Source: a virus
Strand: one strand, 5' to 3'
DNA: 64,000 nt
IMG/VR virus record: IMGVR_UViG_3300007513_001761
Span: 1-64,000 of that record
Shown here: positions 24,277 through 56,623 of the stretch, piece by piece
How the letters are laid out: each line of letters begins with the position of its first letter
How positions within the stretch are numbered: position 1 is the first letter of the stretch
Made by a program: the position numbers and the translations under genes
The notes under the pieces: model-generated
What the model saw: the letters and a program-made list of their open reading frames with translations, nothing else
What the model was told of the DNA's origin: nothing
Databases searched by the model: none

Positions 24277-26275
24277 ATTCTTCTACTCGGAACTTAAACG
24301 TTTCCCGTTGTTCGGTCCACGCTTGCAACGATGGATCATAAAAGGAAAACCGAAGTCCATACGCATACCCTGGCTCTAACAGATTCATATCCACGTCAAA
24401 GTAATTTCCGGAAATATCATAGGAGAGTCCAGTAGCAATATCCGACCCGGTGCCGTAAGGAATAGCCTCATAGCCATCTACCAATCTAAAAACACGATAG
24501 GAAGCGCTTTGAATTGTTGAGCTTTCTACGGTGGTATTGGCTGTTGTGTAAATCGTAGGTTTCCAATATTTATTTCTAATAAACAAATTAAAGCGCGCAT
24601 TTTCATCGTTTCGATATCGATCTTTTAGATTTGTAATATTCAGATAATACACGGGCTTTTGAATCACTTGGGATGCACTGAAATGTGTAGGGTTAAACGA
24701 AGAAGTGAAAAACTCCACACCGGCCCAAGGGTTGTTTTTTCCACTTCCATCGTGCCATACATCGAAAATTGTCGTAAGCGGAGAAGAAGCTCCAGTAATC
24801 GCAAACGAGGCACTGTAAATTCCAGTGGATACGTGCGCACCCGTCACAACATAGGGGTTGGTGCTATTTGGCACCCAGAGGCGCGGAAGTGTTGTTGGCA
24901 GCGAAATTGCTGCGCGCGTTGCAGCGCTTGAAGACGCGGCTTGTCCGCTTGGTTTGGTGTTATCGTCAGAGCCTGAATAAAAACTCACATAAATGGGGCC
25001 GGTTCCAATCGAAGGAATGTCTCTTAGGGCGCCTCTCACATAGTTGTAAAGGTAGAGGCTATTAATATTATCATTAACGGGGGCCAAAGAACTGCTGTAG
25101 TATGTATCTCCTCTATCATCTTTTACGGTGGAGTCCCACCGCGCTTCAATGGAGGGGCGCATAAAATAATATTGAGTTCCTCGTGCAAAAAACCTCTTCG
25201 TATAGTAAGAAATGGTAGAACCGGTAGGATCCTCTAGCCATCCATTATAAGTCCCATCAGCGCTGTTCGCGTAATATCCCTCATAAGTTCCTGTCAAGTG
25301 TACACCAACGCCATAATTTGCAATGGTTCCTGCAGACCATAACTCTACAAGACCGGTAATATCTATCTCTAGGTCTTCTAATCCAGTAGCAAAAGATTGA
25401 GTATACCATCTCCAAGGATATGCAGCATTCGCTTCAGTAATGTAGTCTCCTCCCACTTTTTCCCATGGAGTTCCGGCACTACCTGCCTGTTGTATTCCCA
25501 ACGAAATGCCGTCCAGTGTTCCCTCTACCGAAGTGCTTGTAACGCCGCCGGCTGTACTAGAGGTAACATATATAACGGCCGAGTCAGTGGGATCTATATT
25601 GGCTGAAAAGGCGCTTAAGCCGTCTACAACGCTATTAAATGCGGCCGCAATGCTGGCTTTGGCTGCAGTGGTTGAGCTTATATCAACCTCTGTCTCAGTG
25701 CCAGTCGCAGATGGTGCCGAATCTCCTGAGCCGTCATTGAACCATAAGTTATACCTATTGGTGCCATCATAAGTAATAATATAGTTTTCTCCAGATCCGG
25801 CGCCGTAATCAGCCAAAGTGTCCGAAGAGAAGGTAACTTTAGTTATTTCGGCTACATTCGTGCTGTTTCTTACCATCCAATTGGAGCCGGCGTTTCCGTG
25901 AGTCAAATCTTTATACGTTTCAAGATCTAAGCCTGTTCCTTCTTGCCAGTCGGCTGATATCGGCTCTACCACCAAGCTATAATCTTCTGGAACTGTTTTA
26001 GAATGAGGAGCGTTATAAAGCTTTAAATAGAAATTAACGCTGCCGCTATCAGGTATCACTCCGTTGGTTCTGTCTGTAGTGATGGAATCGATTGGAAATT
26101 TAATCAAAATTCGGGATAATTCTACAGAGCTTGATGCTTGGCGTCCATATATTGAAAATGTTTCAATAATGTCCGCATAACCCGCATTGGCTCCTGTTGC
26201 TCTCGTGGTGAGATTCGATTTAAAGGCATTAACAATTGTGTTGTCTGCATTAGCTATATATTTTTTAATTGCCAT
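24266..26275 (-). CDS. Virion structural protein after gp6 (669 aa)
   Basis: A 669-residue protein. Its N-terminal region (DNTIVNAFKSNLTTRATG, then SSVELSRILIKFPIDSI) resembles DNRLRE-type beta-sandwich modules, in which a strand reading RxLxxFdl follows an 'identifier' loop; this reading is tentative. A Thr/Ser/Ala-rich inserted segment follows (about residues 145-270), then more beta-type sequence with many Tyr residues. It starts where gp6 stops (TAATG overlap), so it is translationally coupled to baseplate assembly genes and is likely a baseplate or fibre-attachment protein. Confidence 0.6.
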   Translation of the reverse strand: MAIKKYIANADNTIVNAFKSNLTTRATGANAGYADIIETFSIYGRQASSSVELSRILIKFPIDSITTDRTNGVIPDSGSVNFYLKLYNAPHSKTVPEDYSLVVEPISADWQEGTGLDLETYKDLTHGNAGSNWMVRNSTNVAEITKVTFSSDTLADYGAGSGENYIITYDGTNRYNLWFNDGSGDSAPSATGTETEVDISSTTAAKASIAAAFNSVVDGLSAFSANIDPTDSAVIYVTSSTAGGVTSTSVEGTLDGISLGIQQAGSAGTPWEKVGGDYITEANAAYPWRWYTQSFATGLEDLEIDITGLVELWSAGTIANYGVGVHLTGTYEGYYANSADGTYNGWLEDPTGSTISYYTKRFFARGTQYYFMRPSIEARWDSTVKDDRGDTYYSSSLAPVNDNINSLYLYNYVRGALRDIPSIGTGPIYVSFYSGSDDNTKPSGQAASSSAATRAAISLPTTLPRLWVPNSTNPYVVTGAHVSTGIYSASFAITGASSPLTTIFDVWHDGSGKNNPWAGVEFFTSSFNPTHFSASQVIQKPVYYLNITNLKDRYRNDENARFNLFIRNKYWKPTIYTTANTTVESSTIQSASYRVFRLVDGYEAIPYGTGSDIATGLSYDISGNYFDVDMNLLEPGYAYGLRFSFYDPSLQAWTEQRETFKFRVEEYEY

Positions 26276-28071
26276 TATCTAACTTTTCCTTTAATATCGG
26301 TTTGGGGGAATTTTATTTCTATAATGGCATTTTGAGGAACAACCAAATAACTTCCATCGGGAGATAGATTGTCATTAATATTAAGCGTAGCATTAGAATA
26401 ATTGGTCCCCGTTTTATTATTTAATGTAACAGACGACACATCCAGAACTCCTGTCACTTTCTTGAGTTCGCTATAAATGTCACTAATATAGATGTGCTCT
26501 CCAATATAAAAGCTTGTTTTATATTTCTCTCTTAGTGCATTCACGCAGTCATCCAGAAGAGTAAACTTGTTAGTGTTGGTTGCAGGACTCACCACAAAAT
26601 CAATACCCAAATTAAGAATGTAAGGGTCCAAAATATCAATAGTATCGTTAATCATTCTATAGTGATTAAGCCAAGTTTTTAAATTATTTTTAATAGTGGT
26701 GTTGGTTGTCGTTAATTTACCAGTCTCATTTTCAGATACCACATACATGTTAAGATTTCTCCTTAGAGAATTAGGATCTTTTTGAACCGAAACCCGTTTA
26801 ATTGAACCGTATTGTGCTGGCATTCGGTAGGCCACATTTTCATAATCCGCCTGGGTAACTGCTCTATTTTGGGTGGGGAAGGTATCAAAAATTCGAAGCT
26901 TAAGCTCTGTCGAACTTGGCTCGGAGACATCTCCCACAATCGGCTCCTCGTTGTTAACCTCGATGGAAGACTGAACTTCGGTTATGGTGGCCGATGAAAG
27001 AACTTCTCTATCCGCAAATTCCAACAATGCACTCACTACTGTGTTTAAACCGTTGGTGGCAATATTGGAATTACCAGCATTCGTCATGCGATATGTAATT
27101 GTCAATGTAGTGTTTGATGGCACAATGCCAAAATTTTCATTTTTAGAAAGTCGTGTCGGATCAAAAGTTGTATCCGTTACATAATCTTTTCCAAAAAGTT
27201 CTAAAGCCACCGCTTGTGGGTTTGCAGCCACATTGGATTCTCCCGATTTTCCAGTTCCAAATTGAAGATAGGTGTTGTTGCGATCTCGGTCAACTACAAA
27301 TTTTCTTGATACCAGATAGGGTTTAAGAATAGAAGGAACATTATCATTTAAAAAGTTACTATTGGCTAGCTCTTTAAACACCATATCTTGAGACAAATAC
27401 CCTACCTCAAAATACTCATTTCCTTCTGTGTCTACAACACTAATAATTTCACTGATGGTTGCAGACGACATCTTAAGGCGCCGAAAGCGCTGATAGGCCC
27501 CTACTTTTAGTTTCTCTTGCCCAAAGCGACCAGATACTACATTTCCATAAGCTTTAATAGCAAAATGTGTAGGAGCGCCAGTAGAAGTATTTACTCTAGC
27601 TACAATAACTGGATTTTTTGGATCTGCAAAATCTACGTTTTCTGTCAATGCAAAACTCAAACCGGTTTCGGAAGTAAATCGGCTTCCTCGTTTTAAAACA
27701 GGTATATATCGCGTATCGGGACCAATACCGGTGGTGGATGCGGGTATTAATACGAAAAGCGACACTTTTCCATAAGTGGAGGCGCGTCCTGTATACTTAT
27801 ATCCTAAGATCCTCCCGTGGCGTAACACATTATTATATTGATAAGCGGTGTCTAGAAAAGTTTCATTAACGTTATAATCTAAGTAAAAAGACATTTGATC
27901 GCCCACATAGGCCACTGCATCCAACATTAACGCCCCGAAGGAAGCTTCACTAAAGTCCTGAAAAGTGTCAGGGTAAAATCTCTCTGCTACCTGGCGCAAT
28001 TCTTTGCGTATTCCTTCGTAATCAGTAGCCGTATAATCGATAGGAACTATCTTTTTTTGTTCATCAGACAT
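26275..28071 (-). CDS. 6: Baseplate wedge protein gp6 / baseplate J-like
   Basis: A 598-residue baseplate J/gp6-like protein, which in T4 forms the continuous ring of the baseplate by dimerising between wedges. Diagnostic segments are the N-terminal DYTATDYEGIRKELRQVAER, the SFGALMLDAVAYVGDQMSFYLDYN helix pair, NETFLDTAY, and later the FPTQNRAVTQADYENVAYRMP block typical of the family. The length is close to T4 gp6 (660). It follows the gp25-like gene by 17 bases, the same order seen in contractile-tail phages. It acts inside the assembling tail in the host cytoplasm. Confidence 0.9.
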   Translation of the reverse strand: MSDEQKKIVPIDYTATDYEGIRKELRQVAERFYPDTFQDFSEASFGALMLDAVAYVGDQMSFYLDYNVNETFLDTAYQYNNVLRHGRILGYKYTGRASTYGKVSLFVLIPASTTGIGPDTRYIPVLKRGSRFTSETGLSFALTENVDFADPKNPVIVARVNTSTGAPTHFAIKAYGNVVSGRFGQEKLKVGAYQRFRRLKMSSATISEIISVVDTEGNEYFEVGYLSQDMVFKELANSNFLNDNVPSILKPYLVSRKFVVDRDRNNTYLQFGTGKSGESNVAANPQAVALELFGKDYVTDTTFDPTRLSKNENFGIVPSNTTLTITYRMTNAGNSNIATNGLNTVVSALLEFADREVLSSATITEVQSSIEVNNEEPIVGDVSEPSSTELKLRIFDTFPTQNRAVTQADYENVAYRMPAQYGSIKRVSVQKDPNSLRRNLNMYVVSENETGKLTTTNTTIKNNLKTWLNHYRMINDTIDILDPYILNLGIDFVVSPATNTNKFTLLDDCVNALREKYKTSFYIGEHIYISDIYSELKKVTGVLDVSSVTLNNKTGTNYSNATLNINDNLSPDGSYLVVPQNAIIEIKFPQTDIKGKVR

Positions 28072-28088: not shown

Positions 28089-28457
28089 TTAAGTAGTAAT
28101 AACAATAGAATCACTCGCCCCCAAGGATGGAATAGAATAATATATAACCACCCCCAAGATGTTACCATCCCTATCACCACTATCAAATAAAATCTGGTCA
28201 ATCTTTACAACAGGTAAATATCTCCCCACCTGTCCTATAATATTAGTTCTTATGGCTGAGTTGGTTTGTTCCCCAAAACGCCTAAACAAATATTGCATCA
28301 TACCCACACCAAATTCTGGTACCATCACTCGTTCGCCGGGATTAGTTAGAAGAAGCATTCTTAAATTTTGTCTTATTTCACCCAAAATATCGCTTTCCAT
28401 GGTAAAGCCGGTACCCGAATCGTATTCCATGGGTATGCTAGGTCCCCAAAAAGACAT
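28089..28457 (-). CDS. 25: Baseplate wedge protein gp25 (gpW/gp25 family)
   Basis: A 122-residue gpW/gp25-like protein, a small baseplate wedge subunit shared by contractile phage tails, type VI secretion and tailocins. The family core is clear: EIRQNLRMLLLTNPGERVM, then PEFGVGMMQYLFRRFGE. The length matches T4 gp25 (132). In the assembled baseplate it links the tail tube and sheath to the wedge. It lies between the 2250-residue gene and gp6, and a TATTTATAG box 26 bases upstream suggests that a late transcript starts here. Confidence 0.92.
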   Translation of the reverse strand: MSFWGPSIPMEYDSGTGFTMESDILGEIRQNLRMLLLTNPGERVMVPEFGVGMMQYLFRRFGEQTNSAIRTNIIGQVGRYLPVVKIDQILFDSGDRDGNILGVVIYYSIPSLGASDSIVITT

Positions 28458-28486: not shown

Positions 28487-31400
28487 TCAATCTTGATTTT
28501 CGCACAAAGCGCCTGACGCACTAAACGGATTTGATATCAAACGACGCTTTTGTTTCCATGTTAAGATCCGTTCGCCGCTGGGTAATTTAATCGCTTCGCG
28601 CAAATTCCGAAGATAAACTTGTCCCGGCCCATTGTTCTTACCAGTAATTTCGGCAACATCGAAATCTCTATCATTATAATACGTTTTAAAGAGCCTCTTT
28701 AATCTTGTCTTGGAGCTTCTTAATACGATTTGATCCCATTCGTCCCACTGCATGAAGAAGGGAGACCACACATCTCTATCGGTCGAACTAACCCAGTTCC
28801 CTTCCGAATCCCCAGAAACCTCAATTCCTGTGATTACGCCATCTTCGTCTGACGTTACCTCGGCAGTCATTCCGGGTTTTGTAGTCGGATCAAAGGAGCT
28901 TTTGCCGGCGCGGGCCCAGGATTCATCGTCTGCTACTGTTTTTTCGCCTATGGACATTAAAAACGCTTTATCAACATACATTGCCAACATAGAAGCCATT
29001 TTGCGCACCGGAATAATATATCGAGTCGTAAGCTTAAACTTGTCGTCATTTTTCAAAAGATTGACTAGACATAACAAGCGCTTACTATTTTCATTGATAC
29101 CAACAAAGTCATTGAGCGGGAGATCAAGAGCATCCATCTCTACAGATGTAATTTCATATTTTGTGCCATCCAATATAATAGAGAACCTTAATCCGTAACG
29201 CACCCCCAATTCTCCAGTAATCCCGATAGCTGTTCCATTATCGTCATATACTACTTCCATTGGATTGTCTACACCGGGATATACTTCGGAAAGGAGCGCG
29301 TTTAGATCTGAATTGTCCATAATCTCAGATATAGCGGTGTCATCAGCTAATTTCTCGCCGTTAATACTAATATACTTTTCAATATAAAAGGGTCTGGCGG
29401 GGTCAGCTTCTACTTCACTTTCTCCTAAATCTAGAGTGCTTACGTCTCCAATCTCTACATATATCTTGTCTGTCAGGGGATACAAAGTATCGTGTGCTGT
29501 TGTGTCTGAGTGAGCTTCTCCTACCATATAAACCGGCTCATTATCGTCATTAAGGTGAATGTGATAATATCCAATATATTCTTGTCCCTCGTTTCCATCG
29601 CCGTCGTTATCTTCTCCAATTACAAATTCGCCACCATAGGTATAATATGCCAAATCGCCCACATCATTATAATCGGTAGCAACGGCCGGATCAATAGGCT
29701 CAGTGGGGATATCTATATATGATTCGTTAACGGTACCATCGGGATTCATATTGGCGTTAAGAGTTAAAGAAGAGCCTTGTGTCATGTTGTCTAGCAAATA
29801 ATAATCAAGGTCATAAATATCTGGCGTCCATCCGATGATATCGAGATTTTCAATAATCTTTTCGCTCATAAAGTTTAATTGTTCCATCACCAATTCGGTG
29901 AGTACTATTTTAGCATCTTCTTCAGTTTCTTGAACCGCCTCTAAGTTTTCGTCGGAGCGATAATTTTTAAGGCTTTTGAAAAAAGTAACTTCGTCATCAC
30001 GCTTTGCTTGACGTAAGATATCACGAGTAGGATAAAGATATTCTTCCTGCATATTGTTTAAACGTGTTAAAGCGGCAGTTACATGAAAAGGCGGCTCTAT
30101 CTCTTCTCTTTCAATTCTTTCTCCGTACATCTGTACAGCTTGCTCTAAAAACGCATACCAAAATTCGTTATCTTTAAAGGCTGTGAACAATTCTCTATCA
30201 GCTTCCTGGGGTGCTTTAAAACTACGCTCCATAACTTCAACGATATAAGAGCCATAAATTGCACTAAATACTTCAGGAAAACGCGGCGAAAACTTCGTAA
30301 AAACAGGCATCGCTTTTATAAGCCCCACGCTACAATAAATACGGATAGCTGCTGATATAAGACCTTGCAATAATGCCTTTGAAGAACGATTAAGAATACG
30401 ATCATAAGGCACCTCAAGGACACACTCGGGATCCTGTGACAGCCTAGTGTCTTCTGGCATTGTCGGATAAATTTCATCGATCATTTCTTGTATATCGCCA
30501 AAATCGATTAGGTCTGTATATTTGGGCTTGCAAGGGCTCAGGTCGGGAAATAACACATCCACAAACCCCAGCCAACCTTTATTTTGGAGAGGGGCAACAT
30601 AAACGGCCGGGTTCATATAGTTTCCGCCATAAATTGACGGATCTAGGTAGAATACACGATTTGTGGCACCTTCAATGGTGTAAGTCCCGTCTTCTATTTC
30701 TTGCTGCATTTTGCTGATACCCAATATCATGTCTGAGTTTCTAATATCTCTGGGTTCGAGGTCGTCACCTAATACTTGCGCGTCACCATATAAATCGCCT
30801 CGTTCGGATCCGGCATCCGTATCATCTGCTATCACATATTTTGCATCACTAAAAGACAAGCTATCGAATTGGGCCCCATAATACCACGCGCCCTCGGTGT
30901 TGTCCACATCTGCTATAAGAGTTGCCATGGCAGAAGAAATTTCCCCATATATCTCTTCGCATGCGCTCATAATGGTCGAAGTGTATATCGTTTCGCCATT
31001 ACCCTCTAAAAGCTCTTTCAATAATACATATTGAGGCGCTGTGGCGTTAACGTTGGTTTTATAGTGCCCCTCAAACATAGACATAAAGTCAGCGTACTGT
31101 TCTAAAGTTTCATCACTAATGCCATCAAACGTAGTGTCAATAGCCAAAAATTCATATTCGAGAGCCCTAATGATGCTCTCATCTCCCGGTTCTGCCGTAG
31201 CTAAGGTTCCGTCATCAATATCCTTCTTTCTTTTGGGGTCAAGCATATTGAGAAAACCCGCACCCGGATCAAAGTTCTCATTAGACCTTTCCGAAATCTT
31301 AACTCTAGTGGCGTCTGCGGGACGCGTCGAAACAGTGCCATCCTCATCTTCTACAACGACGCCCACCGACGCATACAATCCGCTACTTTCATCCGGATCA

Positions 31401-34400
31401 TCACCATCCCCTTCTAATTCGTACAAATCCGCAAAAAACACTTCTAAATCAAAACCATACGCATAAGTATCCGAATAATCATCTAGATTGCGAGCATTAT
31501 CATTAAACTCTAAGGTAACGTCGGGTGTCGCTTTGCGCGCCTTGGCCCAGACCTCAAGGGTGTTGTTGTCTTCTCCTTCAAAGTCAGGACGGAACTCAAT
31601 GTTGTAGCCAAATTCTGGCATTTTCAAAAGGTTGATTTTGTTTCGATTAAATGGCCCATATCCGGGCAAATCTTTAAAGTCTTTGGTCACCAGGCGCTCT
31701 TCCGGCTCTATCTCGTTGTTCATATCATAACTAAACGCCAGTAAGCTAAGAGTATCTTGTAAATAGCTTGCAACTTTAAGGGGATATGCGCCTCGTTGCC
31801 GATTGATATCTGGAGGTGACGAAAGAAACGCAGACAAACCTTCAGCGGATTCGAGGGGGGCGGCCTCCAGATCGCTGGCGTCCCAATCACTATAGAAGTC
31901 TACCCTTTTGTTTATATTGCTCGTGGCGCGGTGATGGCGCGTGAGAGGTTGTCCCATTGTATCTGAGAGGATCATGTTCACAAGTCCCCACTTCTTTTTA
32001 GTAGGACCATTGCCAATCATATCTTGAGAGTATGCGATTTTCAAAGTTTCAAGAGAGCCGCCCAGCGTGGCTGACACTGTGTCTGCTACTTCGTCCGGTT
32101 CGTAGGGTAAAATACCGTTGTCACAGCCAGGATCCGAGAGCATCGGTGGAGTATTGTTTTCCAAAAATGGTCCCAACCCTCCCTGAAAAATGTCTCCAAT
32201 GTCTCCTAAATCTTCCAAAGCTTGATCGGTATAGCTTTGACACATCTTTTCGCTCTGTGCTGGTGAAAGCCTTCCTTCTAGAAGTTGCATGCGCATGTTA
32301 CACATTTCTTCCTGTTGTTCCTCGGTTAAACAGAGAGAGGGACTTATTGCCTCTTCGGGAACTTGGTCAAGAGCTTTTTTCATCTCTTCTTTAAAGTCGG
32401 CGGGCATTACATTTCCCATGTTCCTAAAAGTAGCCGCAATCGTGCTAGGACCCTTTAGGCTCGGGCGAAATTGAGGGAACTCGTATTTTACAATATCATC
32501 TACAGCTTTTAAGAACTCTGGTGATGGGTTTCCAAGATAAGCTTCTTGAACTTCTCTAGCTGTCGAATTATTGGAGACCTCTTGTGTAAATCGTTGTACT
32601 TCTTCCGAGTCGGTAAAAGCAGCACCCCCGTTTCCAAAAGATTGAAATAATTCAGTGATTGTAGCATCAAGAGTTTCGTCATCAACATCATCGCCGCAAA
32701 TTGACTCTCTAATTGCATCAGCTACAGTGTTTTGATTGCTAAACGCTGCTGCAGTCATATCACCGACCAATTCTAATGCATTACAAATCGCTTCACTTAA
32801 AATTTCACACAATTTAATCATGAGTAATTCCCAAATTTTAGCGATTAGTTCTGCAATTGCTGCTTTGGCGGCCAACTTTATCCAATACCACAAACTTACA
32901 AACTTATCAAAGGGCGGAATAACAAACTGTGGCCACGCAATTTCATCCATATTCCGACAAATCGGTAAAGACAAACTTTTTATAAAATCAGCAGCGTTGG
33001 GATTAAAAAACGCGGTATTAGGACATGTAAGGGCAGCAAAAATATAACCAATAATTGGGGCGCCCGGAAAGTTGCCTAACATGTCCATTAATGATAATTC
33101 ATCTCCCAAATAAACTTCTAGCAACGCCTGAATATAAGCTTCCATAATGATATCGTTGCTTAGTTGTCCACTAACACTTCCAATGTCCACACTGGGTCCT
33201 AGGGTTCTGCGGTTTTCTTCTACATGAGAAGCCCAACCAGAATACGAAACAGAACCATATGGTCCTTCGGCGCGCGTTGCAAAGTCGCCTTTTTGAACAT
33301 CTGCAGTAGCGGCGGCCCATGGTCCTACTGGCTCTTCATCGCCATAATCGTAGTTTCCTACCACGGCATCGCTAGCCTGCTCGTTTGCTGAAGCAGATGA
33401 GAAAATATCCCCTTCTGAAAGCTTTTCATTCATCTTGTCCGACAACTCTTGTTGTTTATCAGCGGGAAGTCCAACAAACAAATCTCCAAAGTTTTCAATA
33501 GACATTGCTCGCAGTGCGCTTTCAAGCATTTTTCCTAACGCTTGCTCTAAGGTAAGACCTCCAAACAAACATTCGAGCGCTTTAACCATAAGGTCTAAAA
33601 GTCCACACAGTTTTAGGCGATTGAATTTTTCGCGACCACTCTTCCGCTCGTCGCGGTTGCCTTTTCTCTGTTCATTCCAACTTATTGCGGCGTACTTAAC
33701 ACTATTTTCCCCCCCTCTCTCGTAATTGAAAACCCAATTGCAAAAGTCAGCAAACATGTCAGCATCTTGTTGAATCTCTTCTAAGGCTTGTTCTTTGGCC
33801 AAAGTTTTAATTTTAGCTTTGTCTACTTTCCAGATAGATTCACCTGTGGCAACAGTTTTGGGCTCATTCCAGGTTGTAGAATCCTCAGCCGCTGCTGCTA
33901 GAAGCTCGTCAGAAGTCATTTCTCTTTGAACCTGGCTTTCGCTAAGGAGTATTTCCAGTTCTTCTTTTAGTTTTTCCATGTCTTCTGTTGTGTAATTGCA
34001 TGTAAAATCATGGAACATATAAGCTATAGCATCTCCGAGACTAAAAGCTTCATCTAAAATATCCTGACCTAATTCTTTTCCTTCTTCTAAAAGTGCTTCA
34101 GCTATACAACTGCGGCCCGTATGTTCACCCGACGCATCATATTCAGAGTTGGCTGTGTCGTAAATTTCAGGATATGTATATGTTTTAAGAAAATCTAACC
34201 AATCTGTGGGTTCTCGCGCTGTTAATTCCTCTACCATGTCGCGTGCCTGAACAAAATAAGCTACGGCTGTGGAATCAGACCACGCTGAAGTTGATACCAA
34301 TAATTCATCCAGGGCAGTGATTATAATTGGCTCTTCTACACATCCTTCAGCTTCAATTTCAAGTTCTTTTAAAACATACTCGCTAGTAAATGTAAAAGTA

Positions 34401-35239
34401 ATGCTACTAACGGCCCTGTTCCACGTAAAGGTATCAGAAAAAGGGCCCCCGGTGCCCACTATGTTATAGTTGCGCTTGTTAAGAAAAGCATCCAATTCCG
34501 GCAAAAGCTTTCCAACTTCAGAATTTTTACTACTCCAACCATAATCACCATATAAATCTAACGAAAACACAGAGTTATCGCTTAAAAATTTCAAATTACC
34601 TTGCCCTGTGCCACGGTAAACATTTAGATAGCGCGTATAAAGGAAGAGAGATTTGCGCACTTTCATTAACAATTCAAACATCTCTGACGACGCATACCAC
34701 ACTTCTATGTCGCCATCTTCATTTTCGGCGCCTTCTTCTTCAGAATCAGCCGCGTCTATAGCTTCTAAATTTTCATAAGGCACAGAATAAAGTAATTTTA
34801 ATCTGCTCATGGAACGCAATCCGACATAATAGTCAGTATGCTCTACCACTTCTTTCAAAATATCTATAGATGCCTGAGAGGTGTCTTTATTATAAGCCAG
34901 CAATAAGGCGGCAAGAGCGGCTTCCTCATATGTTCTCTGCAAATTTGCTACTTCCAAATCAGCTTGCGTATTTACTTCTTCTTCAGATAAGGACTCTATA
35001 TCTTCCATAAGCCCTAAGACGCTATTTTCCGCTGTTTCATAGGTAATTTGATACATACACCTTCTTTCATTTAAAAAAGGAGTATATTCGTCTAAAGTGC
35101 GCCAATTAGGAAGAATGGCAGCGCTATTGGGAATACACGGCGGGCACTCATCGGGAGCAACGGTTTCTATCGGCTCACAAACATCATTGAGTCCATCGCC
35201 GTTCGCATCTTGAAATGGTAAAAATTTGGATTCAGACAT
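28487..35239 (-). CDS. Very large virion protein (2250 aa)
   Basis: A 2250-residue, very acidic protein. Residues 8-20 (QDANGDGLNDVCE) form a D-x-N-x-D-G-x-x-D calcium-loop pattern like thrombospondin type 3 or dockerin loops, followed by Cys-Pro-rich sequence. The first 450 residues and several later parts are helical and rich in Glu/Leu, suggesting coiled coil. Around residues 770-830 a strongly hydrophobic helical stretch (IKLAAKAAIAELIAKIWELL) could be buried or membrane-active. No enzyme motif is recognised. Position between the spike-like gene and gp25 points to the baseplate hub or tail; a tape measure is less likely because long beta-type regions are present. Confidence 0.6.
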   Translation of the reverse strand: MSESKFLPFQDANGDGLNDVCEPIETVAPDECPPCIPNSAAILPNWRTLDEYTPFLNERRCMYQITYETAENSVLGLMEDIESLSEEEVNTQADLEVANLQRTYEEAALAALLLAYNKDTSQASIDILKEVVEHTDYYVGLRSMSRLKLLYSVPYENLEAIDAADSEEEGAENEDGDIEVWYASSEMFELLMKVRKSLFLYTRYLNVYRGTGQGNLKFLSDNSVFSLDLYGDYGWSSKNSEVGKLLPELDAFLNKRNYNIVGTGGPFSDTFTWNRAVSSITFTFTSEYVLKELEIEAEGCVEEPIIITALDELLVSTSAWSDSTAVAYFVQARDMVEELTAREPTDWLDFLKTYTYPEIYDTANSEYDASGEHTGRSCIAEALLEEGKELGQDILDEAFSLGDAIAYMFHDFTCNYTTEDMEKLKEELEILLSESQVQREMTSDELLAAAAEDSTTWNEPKTVATGESIWKVDKAKIKTLAKEQALEEIQQDADMFADFCNWVFNYERGGENSVKYAAISWNEQRKGNRDERKSGREKFNRLKLCGLLDLMVKALECLFGGLTLEQALGKMLESALRAMSIENFGDLFVGLPADKQQELSDKMNEKLSEGDIFSSASANEQASDAVVGNYDYGDEEPVGPWAAATADVQKGDFATRAEGPYGSVSYSGWASHVEENRRTLGPSVDIGSVSGQLSNDIIMEAYIQALLEVYLGDELSLMDMLGNFPGAPIIGYIFAALTCPNTAFFNPNAADFIKSLSLPICRNMDEIAWPQFVIPPFDKFVSLWYWIKLAAKAAIAELIAKIWELLMIKLCEILSEAICNALELVGDMTAAAFSNQNTVADAIRESICGDDVDDETLDATITELFQSFGNGGAAFTDSEEVQRFTQEVSNNSTAREVQEAYLGNPSPEFLKAVDDIVKYEFPQFRPSLKGPSTIAATFRNMGNVMPADFKEEMKKALDQVPEEAISPSLCLTEEQQEEMCNMRMQLLEGRLSPAQSEKMCQSYTDQALEDLGDIGDIFQGGLGPFLENNTPPMLSDPGCDNGILPYEPDEVADTVSATLGGSLETLKIAYSQDMIGNGPTKKKWGLVNMILSDTMGQPLTRHHRATSNINKRVDFYSDWDASDLEAAPLESAEGLSAFLSSPPDINRQRGAYPLKVASYLQDTLSLLAFSYDMNNEIEPEERLVTKDFKDLPGYGPFNRNKINLLKMPEFGYNIEFRPDFEGEDNNTLEVWAKARKATPDVTLEFNDNARNLDDYSDTYAYGFDLEVFFADLYELEGDGDDPDESSGLYASVGVVVEDEDGTVSTRPADATRVKISERSNENFDPGAGFLNMLDPKRKKDIDDGTLATAEPGDESIIRALEYEFLAIDTTFDGISDETLEQYADFMSMFEGHYKTNVNATAPQYVLLKELLEGNGETIYTSTIMSACEEIYGEISSAMATLIADVDNTEGAWYYGAQFDSLSFSDAKYVIADDTDAGSERGDLYGDAQVLGDDLEPRDIRNSDMILGISKMQQEIEDGTYTIEGATNRVFYLDPSIYGGNYMNPAVYVAPLQNKGWLGFVDVLFPDLSPCKPKYTDLIDFGDIQEMIDEIYPTMPEDTRLSQDPECVLEVPYDRILNRSSKALLQGLISAAIRIYCSVGLIKAMPVFTKFSPRFPEVFSAIYGSYIVEVMERSFKAPQEADRELFTAFKDNEFWYAFLEQAVQMYGERIEREEIEPPFHVTAALTRLNNMQEEYLYPTRDILRQAKRDDEVTFFKSLKNYRSDENLEAVQETEEDAKIVLTELVMEQLNFMSEKIIENLDIIGWTPDIYDLDYYLLDNMTQGSSLTLNANMNPDGTVNESYIDIPTEPIDPAVATDYNDVGDLAYYTYGGEFVIGEDNDGDGNEGQEYIGYYHIHLNDDNEPVYMVGEAHSDTTAHDTLYPLTDKIYVEIGDVSTLDLGESEVEADPARPFYIEKYISINGEKLADDTAISEIMDNSDLNALLSEVYPGVDNPMEVVYDDNGTAIGITGELGVRYGLRFSIILDGTKYEITSVEMDALDLPLNDFVGINENSKRLLCLVNLLKNDDKFKLTTRYIIPVRKMASMLAMYVDKAFLMSIGEKTVADDESWARAGKSSFDPTTKPGMTAEVTSDEDGVITGIEVSGDSEGNWVSSTDRDVWSPFFMQWDEWDQIVLRSSKTRLKRLFKTYYNDRDFDVAEITGKNNGPGQVYLRNLREAIKLPSGERILTWKQKRRLISNPFSASGALCENQD

Positions 35240-35270: not shown

Positions 35271-36311
35271 TTATGTTATGTTAACATTTCGACTGCATAT
35301 ATAGCGACTCGCGTTAGGATCAGTGTAATGTTGTCGCCAAGCCAATATCTGCCCTTGTTGAGACCATGCTGGGCCCGAGCCCTGGATGTTACATGCTGCG
35401 AGCGCGCTGGCTAAAGCGGCGGTTTGTCCGCCGGCGACCATGACCGGGTTTGTTCCCACAACCCCAATTATTGCCTGTTGAACAAGATTCATTGTAAGAG
35501 CCACTCCAGCTATAGAATCGACAATCGCTGCCAACTCTTTCAACGCCTGAAGAAGGTTTTCTCCCATAACTGCTGGCTGTAAGTAATTTAAGTGAGGATC
35601 ATGATCTGGAAAGAAAATCTTTCCAATCTCCAATATGGCTTTTGGAATTAAAAGTTCGCGACCAGCGGCATTGTTGCCGGCGATCAAATCAATAGTGGCT
35701 GCCTGTTCTATGCTGCCTCCTTTAGAGTTTGTTTCGCCCAAAAGACCCAGACCTTTGGCACCTTGTGTGCGTCCAGTTACAATTTTTACGCCTTCGTTTC
35801 CGAAGATGCGCACCTTATCAGCTTTCATGCCCACGGCCGATGAGGGTTCTTCCGGATCTCCCGTTTTACGTGCAATTCCAAAATTCGTGTCTATTGTGGT
35901 AAGAGTACTAATATAAATGCGAGCCGCGTCGGCTACAAAATTACGATTAACAATCATTCCATCACAGGGTCCCTTAGAACCACGAGATTTGGCCGCCAGA
36001 CCGACGACTAAATCGATAGTATCGCCAACGCCAAGGGCGCCGAGTCCCGAAGCTTCGGTAGAAGGGCGATCTAATCCGAAGATTAAATGCGCATTATTAT
36101 GAGACATCACCTTTTCGCCCTGGGCCGCATTGAATGTGATGAAGGGTTGAATAGGTGGGGTATTCATCAACCCACCTGTTGCTGTGTTAACAGGTGTACC
36201 TTGATCCATCAAGTCTTGAGGTGTTGCTGGTACCTCAGACTCCCCAGTCCCTTCCGGACATCTCTCAAATGTGTCTTTGTTGAAAAGTTTTCGCTTGCCT
36301 TTTGATGCCAT
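35271..36311 (-). CDS. Spike-like baseplate protein (346 aa)
   Basis: A 346-residue glycine- and alanine-rich protein. Its middle (KADKVRIFGNEGVKIVTGRT, then IDLIAGNN) has the short alternating strands seen in the beta-helical parts of phage central spike proteins. The C-terminal region contains a hydrophobic helix (NLLQALKELAAIVDSIAGVA) and ends in a Tyr-x-Cys-x-Arg-rich tail. The call as a puncturing-spike relative is inference from strand pattern and from position just after three cell-wall enzyme genes and before gp25/gp6. A TATTTATAG box 24 bases upstream of the ATG marks a likely late transcript start. Confidence 0.5.
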   Translation of the reverse strand: MASKGKRKLFNKDTFERCPEGTGESEVPATPQDLMDQGTPVNTATGGLMNTPPIQPFITFNAAQGEKVMSHNNAHLIFGLDRPSTEASGLGALGVGDTIDLVVGLAAKSRGSKGPCDGMIVNRNFVADAARIYISTLTTIDTNFGIARKTGDPEEPSSAVGMKADKVRIFGNEGVKIVTGRTQGAKGLGLLGETNSKGGSIEQAATIDLIAGNNAAGRELLIPKAILEIGKIFFPDHDPHLNYLQPAVMGENLLQALKELAAIVDSIAGVALTMNLVQQAIIGVVGTNPVMVAGGQTAALASALAACNIQGSGPAWSQQGQILAWRQHYTDPNASRYICSRNVNIT

Positions 36312-36362: not shown

Positions 36363-37688
36363 TTATTCATAGTTTTTACACACATTAGTGGACGGATCTG
36401 ACCATTTTTTACACACAGCGCATGCAGCGTGAGATTTACAAAAATCCTCAACTGACCAAAATGAATCTAAATACCTTCCAAAGCTTATTTGCCCTTGAGA
36501 ACACAAATAGCCGGGGCCTTTTACCCATGAATTAAGGGCAGTCGTATAGTTCCAAACGTCTTCTTTAGAAGTACTAGATAGCCCTTCTATTTCGCTAGAA
36601 TAAGTTCCGCCTTTTCCATGAAGTATCCAGCCCGCTACCGCTAATCCTGTTCTGTCGGCGCCGTGTTTACAGTGTACTAAAACGTTCCCTTTTGCAAATT
36701 CTTTATTAAACGCACTAACCGACTCCTGGAAGCCTTGCCCCTTGATACATCCTTGATGGGCTGACATTTTCTTATATTCAATTTTTTTGCCGGCTGTTTT
36801 TTTATCTAAATATTCGATGTAAGCCTCTTCTATTTCCATCGTGATGCAGGTTGCCATCTGCGGATCCCATCCATATTCGCTATCCAAATCGTCGCGATTA
36901 AGACGAATAAATGTTGTAATATTATCTGTTTCAACCATGTATTTTATTTCACCCAATGTGGGCTGCTTATATCTATAGTTGTTGTTTCCTATCGCTAGAT
37001 AATTACCACTTGGTTTTTTTGCAGTGACAGAATCAAAATTCAAAACACCAGGCGGCACTGTAGCTGGACATTTGCCACCATCGGGGCGCTGTCCTGGGGC
37101 GGCCGTGTCTTGTACGGGATCATAACTCTTCAAGCGGGCAATCGTATTGATCAAGAATTTACCGCTCAGCGGCTCACACTGGGGCTCTTTTGGATCTCTT
37201 AAGTTGGCGCGCTCAATGAGCCGAGTTACAATGCCATGTTGAGAGTTTACTGTGTTTGTTTCTCCGTTCATATTTAAGGTTATTTCTACTATGTCGTTTT
37301 GTCGTATAGGAGAATCAGTAGAGGTTTGGTAGTCGGCAGACGTTACACACAAAGTATGCAATTTAATCAATTTAACGGCTTCCGCAATATTGCTAGTGGA
37401 ATCAAGATTACAGGGGTTTGGCAAATAATGATGCGGGCTTTTCTCGTAAAGATCATCCTTTATTCTCACTCTTATAACATAGCGTCCTATTTGAGCATCT
37501 CCAGTATTTCGGCCAGTTCCTGTATATCTATCTAAGTCGCGTTGAGAGAGAGGGAGGGCATCCGTAAGCGCTACACCTTTGAACACCTTAATTTCTCCTC
37601 GTTTTGCATTAAGCTGATTTTGAGATGCCCACATCAACAATTCTAAACGCATACGAGGCGTTGTAAATGTAGTTTTATCCATTAACAT
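36363..37688 (-). CDS. Tail protein: shared N-domain plus Cys phosphatase
   Basis: A 441-residue protein with two parts. Residues about 30-195 match the N-terminal domain of the next two upstream genes (GEIKVFKGVALTDALPLS, IGRYVIRVRI, a conserved Asn-Pro-Cys, CVTSADYQTST, then a 'C-x2-L-x-G-x-F' end). The C-terminal half carries HCKHGADRTG (339-348), the Cys-x5-Arg loop of tyrosine/dual-specificity phosphatases with catalytic Cys340 and Arg346. A cysteine-rich tail follows. By analogy with its two sisters it should be carried on the virion and act on the cell envelope, perhaps removing phosphate from a surface glycan; this is inference. It starts at ATG 37688, or at 37682 in a TAATG overlap with the preceding stop. 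Confidence 0.75.
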   Translation of the reverse strand: MLMDKTTFTTPRMRLELLMWASQNQLNAKRGEIKVFKGVALTDALPLSQRDLDRYTGTGRNTGDAQIGRYVIRVRIKDDLYEKSPHHYLPNPCNLDSTSNIAEAVKLIKLHTLCVTSADYQTSTDSPIRQNDIVEITLNMNGETNTVNSQHGIVTRLIERANLRDPKEPQCEPLSGKFLINTIARLKSYDPVQDTAAPGQRPDGGKCPATVPPGVLNFDSVTAKKPSGNYLAIGNNNYRYKQPTLGEIKYMVETDNITTFIRLNRDDLDSEYGWDPQMATCITMEIEEAYIEYLDKKTAGKKIEYKKMSAHQGCIKGQGFQESVSAFNKEFAKGNVLVHCKHGADRTGLAVAGWILHGKGGTYSSEIEGLSSTSKEDVWNYTTALNSWVKGPGYLCSQGQISFGRYLDSFWSVEDFCKSHAACAVCKKWSDPSTNVCKNYE

Positions 37689-38917
37689 GGCGGATCCAAT
37701 TTGCTATGTCCAAGCGACATGCTTATATAATCAGCGCGGGTGTCAATCGAGAAATCACCACCTGAGTTTTGATCGATGAATGTTTGTCTATCGCGCCCGG
37801 ACTTGAGCGATGCCCAATCATCAGCCAAAGAAAAACTGTCTGGCTTACCAATTGCCCGTGGCCAAAATACATACATATATGCATCCCCTTGATTGGCAAT
37901 GGCGCGGCCTTTCGGTTTATCAAAGTATTGCTCTACAAGCTCTAGTTGTTGATCCCAATTCATCGCATATACCTTAGTCTGTGCAGCTAATCTGTCAGCA
38001 TCCGAAAAGGGTCGAGAATATCCTTGCAGTCCTGCTGATGTGTCTGGCATAAACTGTATTAAACCAACAGCACATTTAGTCAAACGTGTAGAATGATCAG
38101 AATAGCGGCCTTCACAGCCGATATTTATCTCTTGAGGATCAAAGCCACTCTCGCCATTGATAATGTTAGCCAGCCAACCTGGATCAAAGTTAGCACTAAT
38201 ATTATTGGCAACTTTTACAATTCCGTCTGCCTGGTGTTGGCTCAGCCCATATGCTTTCATCAAATCTGCGGCTGTACGGTGGGAGGCTTTTCCGGAAAGA
38301 GAGCATTTAGTAGTTACAGGTCCGGACGAGTGATCGGCTAGCAACGTTAGTTCTGAAGTGTCGAACTTGCCTTGCAAGCTCTCACAGAGGTTTTGTAAAA
38401 AAGGATCGTACTTTGCTTTGGAAACAATTTGAATTATTTCTCCATGATCTGTATGAATATTACCTCGTGAATCGACGGTCATAGTGACTCTTACTTTGTC
38501 ACCTCTGCGCACTATAGAATCACTACTTATGCTAAAGTCTTCAGACGTTACATATGTTGTAAACATTTTTATCATCTTAATAGTCGCGACTAGATCTGGA
38601 GTTTCTCCAATCCCACAAGGATCTATTAAAAAGCGATGAGGGTTTTCTATAGGCTTCAACATATCTCCATTAGCGTTCCCAACGATCATGGCTTTAATGA
38701 TATAACGTCCAATGGTAGCTGCGTCTATTGCGCCTATTGGTCCATTTTTGGTATAATTGCGCTGCTGCTCTCGGCTTAATGGAACAGCGTCTGTTAGTGC
38801 TATAGCAGTAAATTCACGAATTTCGCCACGTCCACGTCGATTAAATCGTATTTCAAATTTATCCGCAATCGATAGGCGCAGTGCTTCTTCGGGAGTGGTG
38901 GGGTAGTCAACAGACAT
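37682..38917 (-). CDS. Tail lysin: shared N-domain plus lytic transglycosylase
   Basis: A 411-residue protein. Residues about 30-195 are the domain shared by three tandem genes (GEIREFTAIALTDAVPLS, IENPHRFLIDPC, GETPDLVATIKMIKMF, VTSEDFSISSDS, CESLQGKF). The C-terminal 190 residues are a soluble lytic transglycosylase domain with the catalytic Glu256 in NGESGFDP and the AVGLIQFMPDT motif. It would cut peptidoglycan between MurNAc and GlcNAc, locally opening the wall during DNA injection. Two cysteine-bearing inserts (NIGCEGRYSDH; LTKC) are unusual for the family. It is directly adjacent to the M23 gene (TAAATG), so it is made with it. Confidence 0.88.
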   Translation of the reverse strand: MSVDYPTTPEEALRLSIADKFEIRFNRRGRGEIREFTAIALTDAVPLSREQQRNYTKNGPIGAIDAATIGRYIIKAMIVGNANGDMLKPIENPHRFLIDPCGIGETPDLVATIKMIKMFTTYVTSEDFSISSDSIVRRGDKVRVTMTVDSRGNIHTDHGEIIQIVSKAKYDPFLQNLCESLQGKFDTSELTLLADHSSGPVTTKCSLSGKASHRTAADLMKAYGLSQHQADGIVKVANNISANFDPGWLANIINGESGFDPQEINIGCEGRYSDHSTRLTKCAVGLIQFMPDTSAGLQGYSRPFSDADRLAAQTKVYAMNWDQQLELVEQYFDKPKGRAIANQGDAYMYVFWPRAIGKPDSFSLADDWASLKSGRDRQTFIDQNSGGDFSIDTRADYISMSLGHSKLDPPC

Positions 38918-40075
38918 TTAGCCTTCCACCATGGGGCCTTCGGCTGCATCAGTCCCTGCTGGGCTCGTGGGATCTGTAGAAGCAACAGCGGGTGCAGTCG
39001 GATCATCACATTTTTGAATTGCCTTAATAAAGGGAGTTGCGTCCATGGGACTAGAACCTTTCCAAAGCTCCATATGTAAATGAGGGCCGGTACCCACGCC
39101 GGTATTTCCAACCTTTCCAATAAGATCTCCGCGACTCACGAGGTCTCCCGCCTTAATATGTGTGGGCTTCTGTGCCATGTGAAAATATTTCGTTTTATAG
39201 CCACTCCCGAGTCCTGTGTGTTTAATGTTAACGGAATTGCCTTGGCGCGTCTTGCCATCCCATGCATAAACTTTATCAATTACTCCATCAGCGGCTGCAT
39301 ATATTGGCGTGCCCGTCGAAGCTCCCCAGTCGGTGCCCTGGTGTTCTTCGCCGCCTCTAGGTCCATAGGGGCTCGTAATGGGATATGAATCATTCATTAA
39401 TGGATGCATCAAATAGAACTCAGAGTATTCTTCTGCACACACTTCTGCGTCTATCGTTATAGACGGAATAGATGTCTCTAACAACTCAATCGTATTAACA
39501 GTGAATTGTCCCTGTAAGCTTTCACATGAATCAAATTGCGGACGTGCAGGATCTGCGGCTTCTACCACTCCTAGAATTTCTCCTTGCTCCATGATCAAAG
39601 CTCCATCGCCACCTACCTGTAAAGTCACTTTAATGATATCATTCCTGTTTATGTTCATCCCGGAACTTATATCGTAGTCTGTGCTGGTGATGAATGTCGG
39701 AAACATTTTAGCTAATGCGATTGAAGTGGCTATATCTGGCGTTTTTCCCAGGCTACAAGGATCGACCAAATAACTGTGTGGGTTTTCAATAAACGGCAAT
39801 CGGTTACCAATCGCATCTCCAACGATAATGGCCTTTACCGCAGAGCGGGCTATTTTGGAATCATCCGGAGAGCTTGTCGTCGAAACAGAGGCTAGCCCAT
39901 ATCGTTCCAACATTTTCTTGCGCGAAAGTGGCACACCGTCGGTAATTGCACGGGCAGTGAACTCTCGAATTTCGCCTGGGAACCCAACGGTTGCTTTGTT
40001 TTGTTTTTGCGCGGCGTAGAGTCCTATCTTGGCCCTAGCCATTGTAAAATCACTATAATCAAGTGGCATCCACAT
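38918..40075 (-). CDS. Tail lysin: shared N-domain plus M23 peptidase
   Basis: A 385-residue protein. The N-terminal 195 residues are the three-gene shared domain (GEIREFTARAITDGVPLS, IENPHSYLVDPC, GKTPDIATSIALAKMF, ITSTDYDISS, CESLQGQF). The C-terminal half is an M23 (LytM/lysostaphin-type) zinc endopeptidase: HQGTD (His245, Asp249), His299 in YFHM, and HLH (332-334). It would cut peptide crosslinks in peptidoglycan at the site of infection. A Pro/Ala/Ser/Thr-rich tail ends the protein. The first ATG overlaps the preceding gene by 17 bases; ATG at 40069 has better spacing (9 bases) from GGAG. Confidence 0.9.
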   Translation of the reverse strand: MWMPLDYSDFTMARAKIGLYAAQKQNKATVGFPGEIREFTARAITDGVPLSRKKMLERYGLASVSTTSSPDDSKIARSAVKAIIVGDAIGNRLPFIENPHSYLVDPCSLGKTPDIATSIALAKMFPTFITSTDYDISSGMNINRNDIIKVTLQVGGDGALIMEQGEILGVVEAADPARPQFDSCESLQGQFTVNTIELLETSIPSITIDAEVCAEEYSEFYLMHPLMNDSYPITSPYGPRGGEEHQGTDWGASTGTPIYAAADGVIDKVYAWDGKTRQGNSVNIKHTGLGSGYKTKYFHMAQKPTHIKAGDLVSRGDLIGKVGNTGVGTGPHLHMELWKGSSPMDATPFIKAIQKCDDPTAPAVASTDPTSPAGTDAAEGPMVEG

Positions 40076-40364
40076 TATCTCCTTGAATTAAATCAAAGAG
40101 AGAGTTTTTGTCATCTTCGGTAAGCTCTACCTCTCGCCCAGAAGCTTTGTGTTTAAGACCGATAAGCTTTACTAGCTGTTCATTGGAACGTTGCATTGTT
40201 TCAATGTGTTTGGCGGCTACAGGGCTCAGATATTTGTTTTGTTCTGCATCTTTGGCAATGGCGTTAGCAATCTCATTTAAAAACTCTCGGGCCACTTTGC
40301 GGTCATTACGAATGTTGCCAAGCGCCTCTTCCATAAGTTTTTTTAAATCTTCTTGTTTGCTCAT
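40059..40364 (-). CDS. Small helical phage protein (101 aa)
   Basis: A 101-residue, almost entirely helical, charged protein (KKLMEEALGNIRNDRKVAREFL, then YLSPVAAKHIETMQRSNEQLVKL) with an acidic C-terminus. It is not recognised with confidence; the helical make-up and size would fit a small assembly or DNA-binding adaptor, including a small terminase-like protein, but no diagnostic motif is present. It overlaps the sigma factor gene by ATGA and the M23 gene by 17 bases, so it is translated with both. Confidence 0.6.
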   Translation of the reverse strand: MSKQEDLKKLMEEALGNIRNDRKVAREFLNEIANAIAKDAEQNKYLSPVAAKHIETMQRSNEQLVKLIGLKHKASGREVELTEDDKNSLFDLIQGDNVDAT

Positions 40365-41062
40365 AATACGCCACTCTCCCAGTCTTGCTTGAACAGGTAA
40401 TACTTTTTTCTAAATTTCTTTAGAGAATTAACAATCTGTTTGGTGTTAAGTCCAGTAATCTCTCTCAAGTATAGGTAAATAGCTTTTTTGTTAAAAATTT
40501 CTATATCCTCTTTCGACTCAAATAAGATAATAATGGCTTTATAAACTTTAAGATCATTTTCCTTCATTTGGGAAGTGTCCCAAGAACTAAGTTCTGTGTG
40601 GAATGAGAGCCAGAATTCTTCGTCTTCTCTCTCGGTCACATAAGATTCATTCGTCGATAGATACTCTTCTTCGTAAGCTTTTGAGACATTTTCATAATCA
40701 ACCTCGCGCATGCTGCGTTTTTGCTGCTGCTTGACTTTATGAATGAACCAATTCTTAGTAATAACAGAAAAATAGGAAAAGGCTTTGGAGCCTTTAGTGG
40801 GGTCGTATTTATCTAAAATGGTCATAAGCCATATCTTACATTCGTCGCGCAAATAGTCGCAATTAGGAAGATTCGTAAATTTATAAGTAAAAACTATTTT
40901 ATCCACCATTTCGTTAAAAGCAGGCTGGATGAGGTTTACATATAACTCAGTTCTTTCTTTTATGCAGTCTGTGTTGCTATATCGGATAATGGCATTTTCA
41001 TGGACAACGGTAAAATAGTGATTACTCTTTTTGGCCGCTCTCTTCTTCTTCGTTTTCTTCAT
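40361..41062 (-). CDS. 55: Late sigma factor, gp55-like
   Basis: A protein of about 233 residues resembling T4 gp55, the sigma factor that directs host RNA polymerase to phage late promoters. The core DYLRDECKIWLMTILDKYDP, KGSKAFSYFSVITKNWF, HKVKQQQKR is the sigma region 2-like segment. The C-terminal part (YLYLREITGLNTKQIVNSLKKFRKKY) has a helix-turn-helix character. A Lys-rich N-terminus precedes the domain. It is longer than T4 gp55 (185). ATG at 41062 is the first ATG and gives a 41-base overlap with the preceding gene. Its targets may be the TATTTATAG boxes in this window (inference). Confidence 0.82.
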   Translation of the reverse strand: MKKTKKKRAAKKSNHYFTVVHENAIIRYSNTDCIKERTELYVNLIQPAFNEMVDKIVFTYKFTNLPNCDYLRDECKIWLMTILDKYDPTKGSKAFSYFSVITKNWFIHKVKQQQKRSMREVDYENVSKAYEEEYLSTNESYVTEREDEEFWLSFHTELSSWDTSQMKENDLKVYKAIIILFESKEDIEIFNKKAIYLYLREITGLNTKQIVNSLKKFRKKYYLFKQDWESGVL

Positions 41063-41393
41063 CAATGAGTTCAGGTTCCTTGCTATCGTCTGTAATTTCG
41101 GGCGCTTCTGGTTCTGTCAACGAGTAAATATACTCGAAAGTTTCTAGTTGTTCGTTAAAAGACACAGCATGGTGTAGAAGATGTTCTAAGGTTTGATCTC
41201 CATAGAATGCATCCAAATCATATACAGACTTAACATGTTTTGCGAATGCATCTATCATATGTTGTAAATCTCCTAGTTCTTCTGACACCGAGAGAAGTTG
41301 CACGATGGCCGAGCGAGCATAAATAAAAATACCCACATTAAGAAACAGCGATAACGTTAGCACTGCAGATAGTATTATTTCAAGTCGGCTCAT
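41022..41393 (-). CDS. Single-pass membrane protein, acidic tail (123 aa)
   Basis: A 123-residue protein with one N-terminal transmembrane segment (residues about 5-27, IILSAVLTLSLFLNVGIFIYA), a helical middle and a very acidic C-terminus (PEITDDSKEPELIDEENEEEE). The function is not recognised. SD GAGG lies 6 bases before the ATG. It sits between the zinc-ribbon gene and the gp55-like gene, and overlaps both. Confidence 0.65.
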   Translation of the reverse strand: MSRLEIILSAVLTLSLFLNVGIFIYARSAIVQLLSVSEELGDLQHMIDAFAKHVKSVYDLDAFYGDQTLEHLLHHAVSFNEQLETFEYIYSLTEPEAPEITDDSKEPELIDEENEEEESGQKE

Positions 41394-41881: not shown

Positions 41882-42259
41882 TTAATCTCCTTTTTCGATT
41901 CTGTAGCTGTCGCTATCAAAGTGTTGTGTTGAGAACTCAAAAAGTTCTGTGTCTTGCAGAGCAATCATTCTGTGGCGTAATCCGCGATATACATGAAAGT
42001 TGTCGCCGGCCTCTAAAACAATCTCCTCTGCGTCTTCTAATTTATCTCCATCTGAGTATTTTACCAGAAGTCTTCCAGATTGAACATAAAAAACCTCGTC
42101 CTTCAATTTGTGAAAGTGCCATGAGCACTGCTTGTCCTTCTCAAAGAACAACAGCTTTCCGCAATATTCCTCACAATTTACTATCCATCTTTCCCAGCCC
42201 CAGCCTTTATCAACGTGGGTCATCGGCAAAGAAGTCGTCTGCTTTAATTCCTTTGTCAT
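41882..42259 (-). CDS. Cupin sugar-isomerase-like protein
   Basis: A 125-residue single-domain cupin. The metal-binding residues are visible: H48-x-H50 and Glu55 in SWHFHKLKDEVFYV, and His96 in GLRHRM, the pattern of the C-terminal domain of type II mannose-6-phosphate isomerases and related sugar-binding cupins. It would bind a divalent metal and a sugar or sugar phosphate. It is the last gene of the glycan island and overlaps the HAD gene. ATG at 42259 has GGAG 12 bases upstream; Met13 (42223) would shorten the overlap but has no ribosome site. Confidence 0.75.
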   Translation of the reverse strand: MTKELKQTTSLPMTHVDKGWGWERWIVNCEEYCGKLLFFEKDKQCSWHFHKLKDEVFYVQSGRLLVKYSDGDKLEDAEEIVLEAGDNFHVYRGLRHRMIALQDTELFEFSTQHFDSDSYRIEKGD

Positions 42260-56611: not shown

Positions 56612-56623
56612 TTCTTGCCTAGG

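Follow-up and report, generated by a model that had tools for sequence, protein, structure and literature searches.

Three tandem paralogues in an uncultured marine virus share a putative tail-hub docking module and carry different predicted enzymes

The IMG/VR record IMGVR_UViG_3300007513_001761 comes from an uncultured marine virus of bacteria and is 113 kb long; its first 64,000 nucleotides, the stretch analysed here, are referred to as the window. On the minus strand, positions 36363-40075 of the window hold three adjacent, intact open reading frames (ORFs; copies 1 to 3, Table 1), of which copies 1 and 2 abut and copies 2 and 3 overlap by 7 nucleotides. Each begins with a homologous domain of ~180 residues, here termed the N-domain, and continues into an unrelated C-terminal domain. 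The N-domains are pairwise 43% (E 1e-40), 35% (E 2e-27) and 33% (E 3e-30) identical over 157-203 residues, a likeness far beyond chance, and the whole 113-kb record contains exactly these three. Shared motifs include GEIREFT/GEIKVFK, LTDxxPLS, NPH/SPHxxLxxPC and CESLQG/CEPLSG. A preliminary description of this DNA, made from the letters alone, had reported a common N-domain, its motifs, and C-termini of peptidase, transglycosylase and phosphatase type; the alignments bear out the first two, and Pfam matches and motifs bear out the third. Two cysteines, C101 and C178 (copy 2 numbering), are nearly invariant, each kept in at least 90% of 80 aligned N-domain sequences, and possibly form a disulfide or a metal site.

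The three C-terminal domains, or cargos, show no significant similarity to one another. The M23 peptidase match of copy 1 lies above the Pfam cut-off, and the zinc ligands are present as HxxxD (HQGTD, residues 245-249) and HLH (332-334). In copy 2, the SLT match scores 20.0 bits, below the Pfam cut-off of 21.3, and Glu256 lies within the motif GESGF. A tblastn search of INPHARED with copy 2 matches several known phage transglycosylases, in their transglycosylase regions only. Residues 159-369 of the same protein, a stretch that takes in the last part of the N-domain as well as the enzyme, match the PHROG family annotated as baseplate hub (phrog_196, E 3.8e-14). The DSPc match of copy 3 is likewise below its curated Pfam cut-off. 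Both of these assignments are backed by motifs, and the phosphatase also by four conserved relatives.

These relatives of the copy 3 cargo occur at related loci L042, L074, L078 and L085 (loci are numbered with the prefix L). Across the five distinct loci the P-loop reads HC[TK]HG[AV]DRTG, with invariant Cys and Arg; the alignment has no invariant Asp upstream of the P-loop and one inside it, before the Arg. When a phosphatase profile is compared with the PDB, it retrieves LAR, mRNA capping enzyme and TpbA (best E 1e-4). The cargo thus resembles the CX5R phosphatases (DSP/PTP, mRNA capping triphosphatase, TpbA, Y_phosphatase3) in its P-loop, but the similarity lies mostly near that loop, and here the domain is fused to a probable phage tail docking module. 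Copy 3 is a predicted phosphatase, which may act on phosphate groups of the envelope or as an effector inside the host. Paper searches on tail-borne phosphatases turned up nothing relevant, and phosphatases go unmentioned in a review of the enzymes with which phages breach the envelope.

Scans of viral contigs with the single sequence of copy 1, copy 2 or the downstream partner protein gave no match, and alignments were needed. Relatives were found with alignments of the partner and of the giant protein next to it, taking at most 80 per scan of up to 320 matching viral contigs; likeness to a small number of partner and giant proteins determined which loci entered the sample. With repeated contigs removed, 111 loci were examined. 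Gene order is kept in ~100 related viral contigs: a marker gene; one or more N-domain genes; the partner gene; and the giant gene. Loci bounded by the marker upstream and the partner downstream, and with a detected N-domain, number 83 when near-identical contigs are included: 71 have one N-domain gene, 7 have two, 5 have three and none has more. Three further bounded loci lacked an N-domain at the first threshold, and a whole-record search gives a weak match in one of them. Clustering at 80% N-domain identity leaves 53 bounded single-copy and 12 multi-copy loci, three of the latter (L016, L042, L069) with the upstream end cut.

No unlinked extra N-domain was found in the 25 records searched whole, a search that looked for hidden copies elsewhere in single-copy phages; the second N-domain stretch that L138's record shows is part of one reading frame with the first and is not an extra copy. 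Among the cultured phages of INPHARED, neither the N-domain nor the partner, giant protein or phosphatase cargo has a relative, and in PHROGs the N-domain has no family, with one weak match among its 80 members. The N-domain is an uncatalogued module that is widespread among uncultured marine phages with contractile tails. Partner and marker genes also occur in two bacterial assemblies, L100 (CP070664.1, a chromosome of a WOR-3 metagenome-assembled genome, MAG) and L101 (an Actinomycetes MAG contig), each of which represents either a prophage or a mis-binned phage.

The array is set within a baseplate gene block, in which gp25- and gp6-type wedge genes follow the partner and giant genes. Among relatives, a tail sheath domain is present in all 9 large records, in some below the Pfam cut-off, and gp25 in all 10 records examined. 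Together, these place the group among contractile-tail phages, the setting that the preliminary description had assumed.

In trees of the N-domain, copies from one locus mostly group together, and supported branches force at least six changes between the single- and multi-copy state. A single ancient triplication was rejected: in the approximately unbiased test, constraining the first copies of all three-copy loci to form one group gives a p of 8e-6, and the same constraint on the third copies gives 9e-5. The copies have expanded independently several times. One triplication is shared by the window and L004 (on the same contig as L016), with clade support of 100/98. By both BLAST and tree distances, window copy 3 is nearest the last copy of L004, and copy 2 nearest its middle copy; support for how copies 1 and 2 branch is weak. 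The cargos have changed between the two loci: the middle copy carries SLT in the window and M15 in L004, and the last copy a phosphatase versus none. The contig stops within the first copy of L004, whose M23 domain matches that of the window. A second triplication, with positions kept, is common to L074 and L085, and L013 represents a third. In both pairs, copy position is conserved across divergent phages despite cargo change.

Exchange of cargo can be seen at L058, whose two N-domains have a protein identity of 91% and a DNA identity of 81%. The DNA match starts shortly ahead of the start codon and extends to nucleotide 707, the N-domain ends at nucleotide 699, and the sequence beyond is unrelated. 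This sharp boundary indicates that the module was copied and joined to another enzyme. Across the relatives, cargo kinship also differs from N-domain kinship. These observations and the independent duplications in the tree give good support to the earlier proposal that a docking module had been duplicated with exchange of its enzyme.

The preliminary description had also suggested looking for other cargos on the shared domain, and the relatives supply them. Pfam scans of 56 single-copy loci identify VanY in 19, amidase_2 in 6, M23, M15_4 and DUF2272 in 3 each, and a muramidase and a tail lysozyme in 1 each, counts in which several families may overlap within one protein; many others have no Pfam match. 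Single-copy loci thus mostly carry a wall hydrolase; multi-copy loci pair wall hydrolases with other cargos. The latter include the phosphatase (window, L042, L074/L076, L078/L079 and L085); a GDSL-like hydrolase (L103 copy 1, E 1.3e-3); and an alpha/beta-hydrolase-like sequence judged by eye only (L130 copy 2). Copy 3 of L004/L016 and copy 1 of L069 have no enzyme at all. As a separate observation, the cargo of hub copy 2 at L042 (2302-4110) contains a long hydrophobic stretch, DLIALIPVYGKAAKAG, which by eye and without Pfam support resembles the translocation segments of polymorphic toxins.

Of 1759 ORFs read, 7 contain the motif HCx5R[ST], and each of these encodes an N-domain protein of a multi-copy locus. 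Counted by distinct locus, 5 of the 12 multi-copy loci have a phosphatase and none of the 53 single-copy loci does; the corresponding Fisher p of 1e-4 overstates the evidence, as L074, L085 and L042 are related and leave roughly three phosphatase lineages.

An AlphaFold2 (AF2) model of the N-domain, built from 80 sequences, has a predicted local distance difference test (pLDDT) score of 82.6 and a predicted template modelling score of 0.70. It contains an N-terminal helix (residues 9-26), a second helix (109-116) and five main strands (32-40, 72-81, 120-124, 141-148 and 158-166). The best Foldseek matches, all weak, are mostly oligonucleotide/oligosaccharide-binding (OB) folds: VgrG/VgrS chains; a baseplate chain of cyanophage A-1(L); and a viral protein annotated as 'Gp5, N-terminal OB-fold domain'. 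Sequence searches of the PDB with the N-domain returned chance matches or none. The predicted fold is a helix followed by a probable OB barrel, like the top of contractile-tail spikes. For the OB-like fold suggested in the preliminary description, the fairly confident model and the identity of its best matches are favourable, but the weakness of every match leaves the assignment provisional. The partner protein also gives a confident model (pLDDT 89); the name 'spike', considered for it, was dropped because that model has no PDB match.

Taken in aggregate, these data suggest a mechanism in which the N-domain, through its helix and OB-like barrel, would dock in the central hub or spike of the contractile tail, much as the top of T4 gp5 or of VgrG does, with each copy displaying one C-terminal enzyme. 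In most relatives a single gene would supply all subunits, presumably as a homotrimer. In the window phage, three paralogues, distinct in sequence and position, would most likely divide the hub's three places among themselves. A single tail tip would then bear an M23 peptidase together with a transglycosylase and a phosphatase, all of which would enter the cell envelope as the tail contracts. The pattern that suggests a hub trimer of different subunits is the combination of copy numbers of one, two and three, single copies that mostly carry one wall hydrolase, and a phosphatase confined to multi-copy loci. As one statement, a gp5/VgrG-like docking module whose three paralogues in the window form a heterotrimer with three enzymes is the best explanation, and we hold it with somewhat better than even confidence. 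Considered alone, the docking role of the module is very likely, and the heterotrimer falls just short of an even chance.

Several points weigh against this explanation. Loci with two copies are no rarer than those with three, and the absence of four-copy loci is weak evidence that could reflect rarity by chance alone; the observation that copies never exceed three was accordingly judged too weak by itself as proof of a trimer. No Foldseek match to the N-domain model falls below E 1e-3, and the Pfam Gp5_OB model does not match the domain. The chains end after the enzyme, with no C-terminal triple beta-helix; the partner protein matches no known spike structure; and no gp27 homologue was recognised. 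The sheath domain was not found in the window's own 113-kb record, which may be a fragment.

The strongest alternative is that the three proteins dock through the same module as separate homotrimers or monomers, at different sites or in different virions, and no heterotrimeric hub exists. The occurrence of one, two and three copies fits this alternative, and N-domain divergence to 32-44% identity is also expected for separate sites. However, single-copy phages show that one gene suffices, so the docking site is probably one and the same, and all copies lie in one compact array at one position in the gene order, never more than three. On balance, separate docking appears unlikely, if a serious contender. 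It is quite improbable that the proteins act outside the virion, as endolysins or otherwise, with the N-domain serving for binding or sorting: M23, SLT and M15 domains are common in endolysins, but the genes hold a fixed place within the baseplate block of relatives, the baseplate hub family spans the junction of N-domain and enzyme in copy 2, and enzyme-free copies would make no sense for an endolysin. Slimmer still is the chance that one hub works and the other two are recent, selfish or decaying duplicates, since, common as gene duplicates are in phages and variable as copy number is here, all three frames are intact with catalytic motifs kept, the N-domains are old (32-44% identical) yet retain the near-invariant residues, and triplication and positions are common to the window and L004 and, separately, to L074 and L085.

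The proposed hub can be compared with three known systems. T4 gp5, which acts as tail-associated lysozyme in the gp5-gp27 hub, lies at the threefold tip of the tail (PMC3004832). Like the window proteins, it places a peptidoglycan-cutting enzyme behind an N-terminal docking domain, whose OB-like fold is probable in the window, and its contractile baseplate also includes gp25 and gp6. It differs in its Gp5_OB sequence and C-terminal beta-helix, neither of which is detected here, whereas the window phage has several paralogues with different enzymes, a phosphatase among them. In Vibrio cholerae, VgrG spikes of the type VI secretion system mix subunits with and without effector domains, and a heterotrimer has been proposed (PMC8668125); the same paper argues that what this species requires is a set of several effectors, not the heterotrimer in itself. 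Such 'evolved' VgrGs combine an OB-type spike module with C-terminal effectors in several paralogues, some cargo-free (PMC8668125), much as is proposed here, and VgrG chains are among the weak Foldseek matches. In contrast to the window proteins, VgrG joins gp27-like and gp5-like parts in one chain, where here the docking domain alone is fused to the enzyme, and it serves a secretion system rather than a phage, in which a heterotrimer is so far a proposal. The trimeric central spike of cyanophage A-1(L), gp25, has an N-terminal helix and an OB fold, and its tail tip bears several hydrolase domains (PMC10966104), as proposed here; a baseplate chain of this phage is also a weak Foldseek match. 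Its enzymes, though, are fixed domains of a single hub chain, gp15, with no cargo exchange between paralogues and no phosphatase.

Coordinates of the array and its neighbours are collected in Table 1. Beyond these, a 234-aa protein at 40361-41065 (minus strand) weakly matches a phage late sigma factor (phrog_234, 4.8e-4), and in relatives it is conserved two genes upstream of the array. A block of sugar-nucleotide/glycan genes adjoins the tail module at 42210-57556 (minus strand): cytidylyltransferase-like, PfkB kinase, DegT aminotransferase, NAD epimerases, E1 dehydrogenase and B12-binding radical SAM. Similar sugar genes lie upstream of the array in L008, L010, L012, L017, L018 and others. 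A candidate fibre or adhesin, 3232 aa long, is encoded at 14578-24276 (minus strand) and has a concanavalin A-like lectin domain (PF13385, 9.4e-7).

Table 1. Features of the N-domain array and adjoining genes, in window coordinates
Feature	Position	Strand	Details
Copy 1 ORF	38918-40075	-	385 aa
Copy 1 N-domain	39503..40075	-	residues 1-191
Copy 1 cargo, M23 peptidase domain	39041..39346	-	residues 244-345; Pfam M23 E 2.1e-25
Copy 2 ORF	37682-38917	-	411 aa
Copy 2 N-domain	38363..38917	-	residues 1-185; AF2 model covers residues 1-198
Copy 2 cargo, predicted SLT/lysozyme-type transglycosylase	37811..38203	-	residues ~239-369; Pfam SLT E 5.2e-4, Phage_lysozyme2 8.1e-3
Copy 3 ORF	36363-37688	-	441 aa
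Copy 3 N-domain	37155..37688	-	residues 1-178
Copy 3 cargo, predicted PTP/DSP-like (CX5R) phosphatase and Cys-rich C-terminus	36366..37154	-	Pfam DSPc E 9.1e-5
Copy 3 P-loop HCKHGADR	36651-36674	-	residues 339-346, within HCKHGADRTG
Marker gene	40059..40364	-	101 aa; conserved; upstream end of N-domain array in relatives
Partner protein	35271..36311	-	346 aa; conserved; directly downstream of array; beta-rich part, then long helices
Giant protein	28487..35239	-	2250 aa; conserved beside partner in relatives; no family match
gp25-type baseplate wedge protein	28089..28457	-	Pfam 1e-12, phrog_261 3.7e-16
gp6-type baseplate wedge protein	26275..28071	-	phrog_6 3.2e-23

A more far-reaching version of the proposal is that a heterotrimeric spike delivers three enzymes in one shot, the extra places being available for non-wall cargo, for instance a host-directed phosphatase of PTP type, in a phage counterpart of the evolved VgrG; we regard this as speculative and rather doubtful. 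If the window's three paralogues do form one hub, phage tails can bear a mixed enzyme set on a single trimeric tip, as type VI spikes may. The repeated shift from one to two or three subunit genes would then represent a natural experiment in the passage from a symmetric to an asymmetric hub, and the phosphatase would stand out as unusual among the enzymes borne on tails. The N-domain itself provides a handle for finding the tail enzymes of uncultured marine contractile-tail phages.

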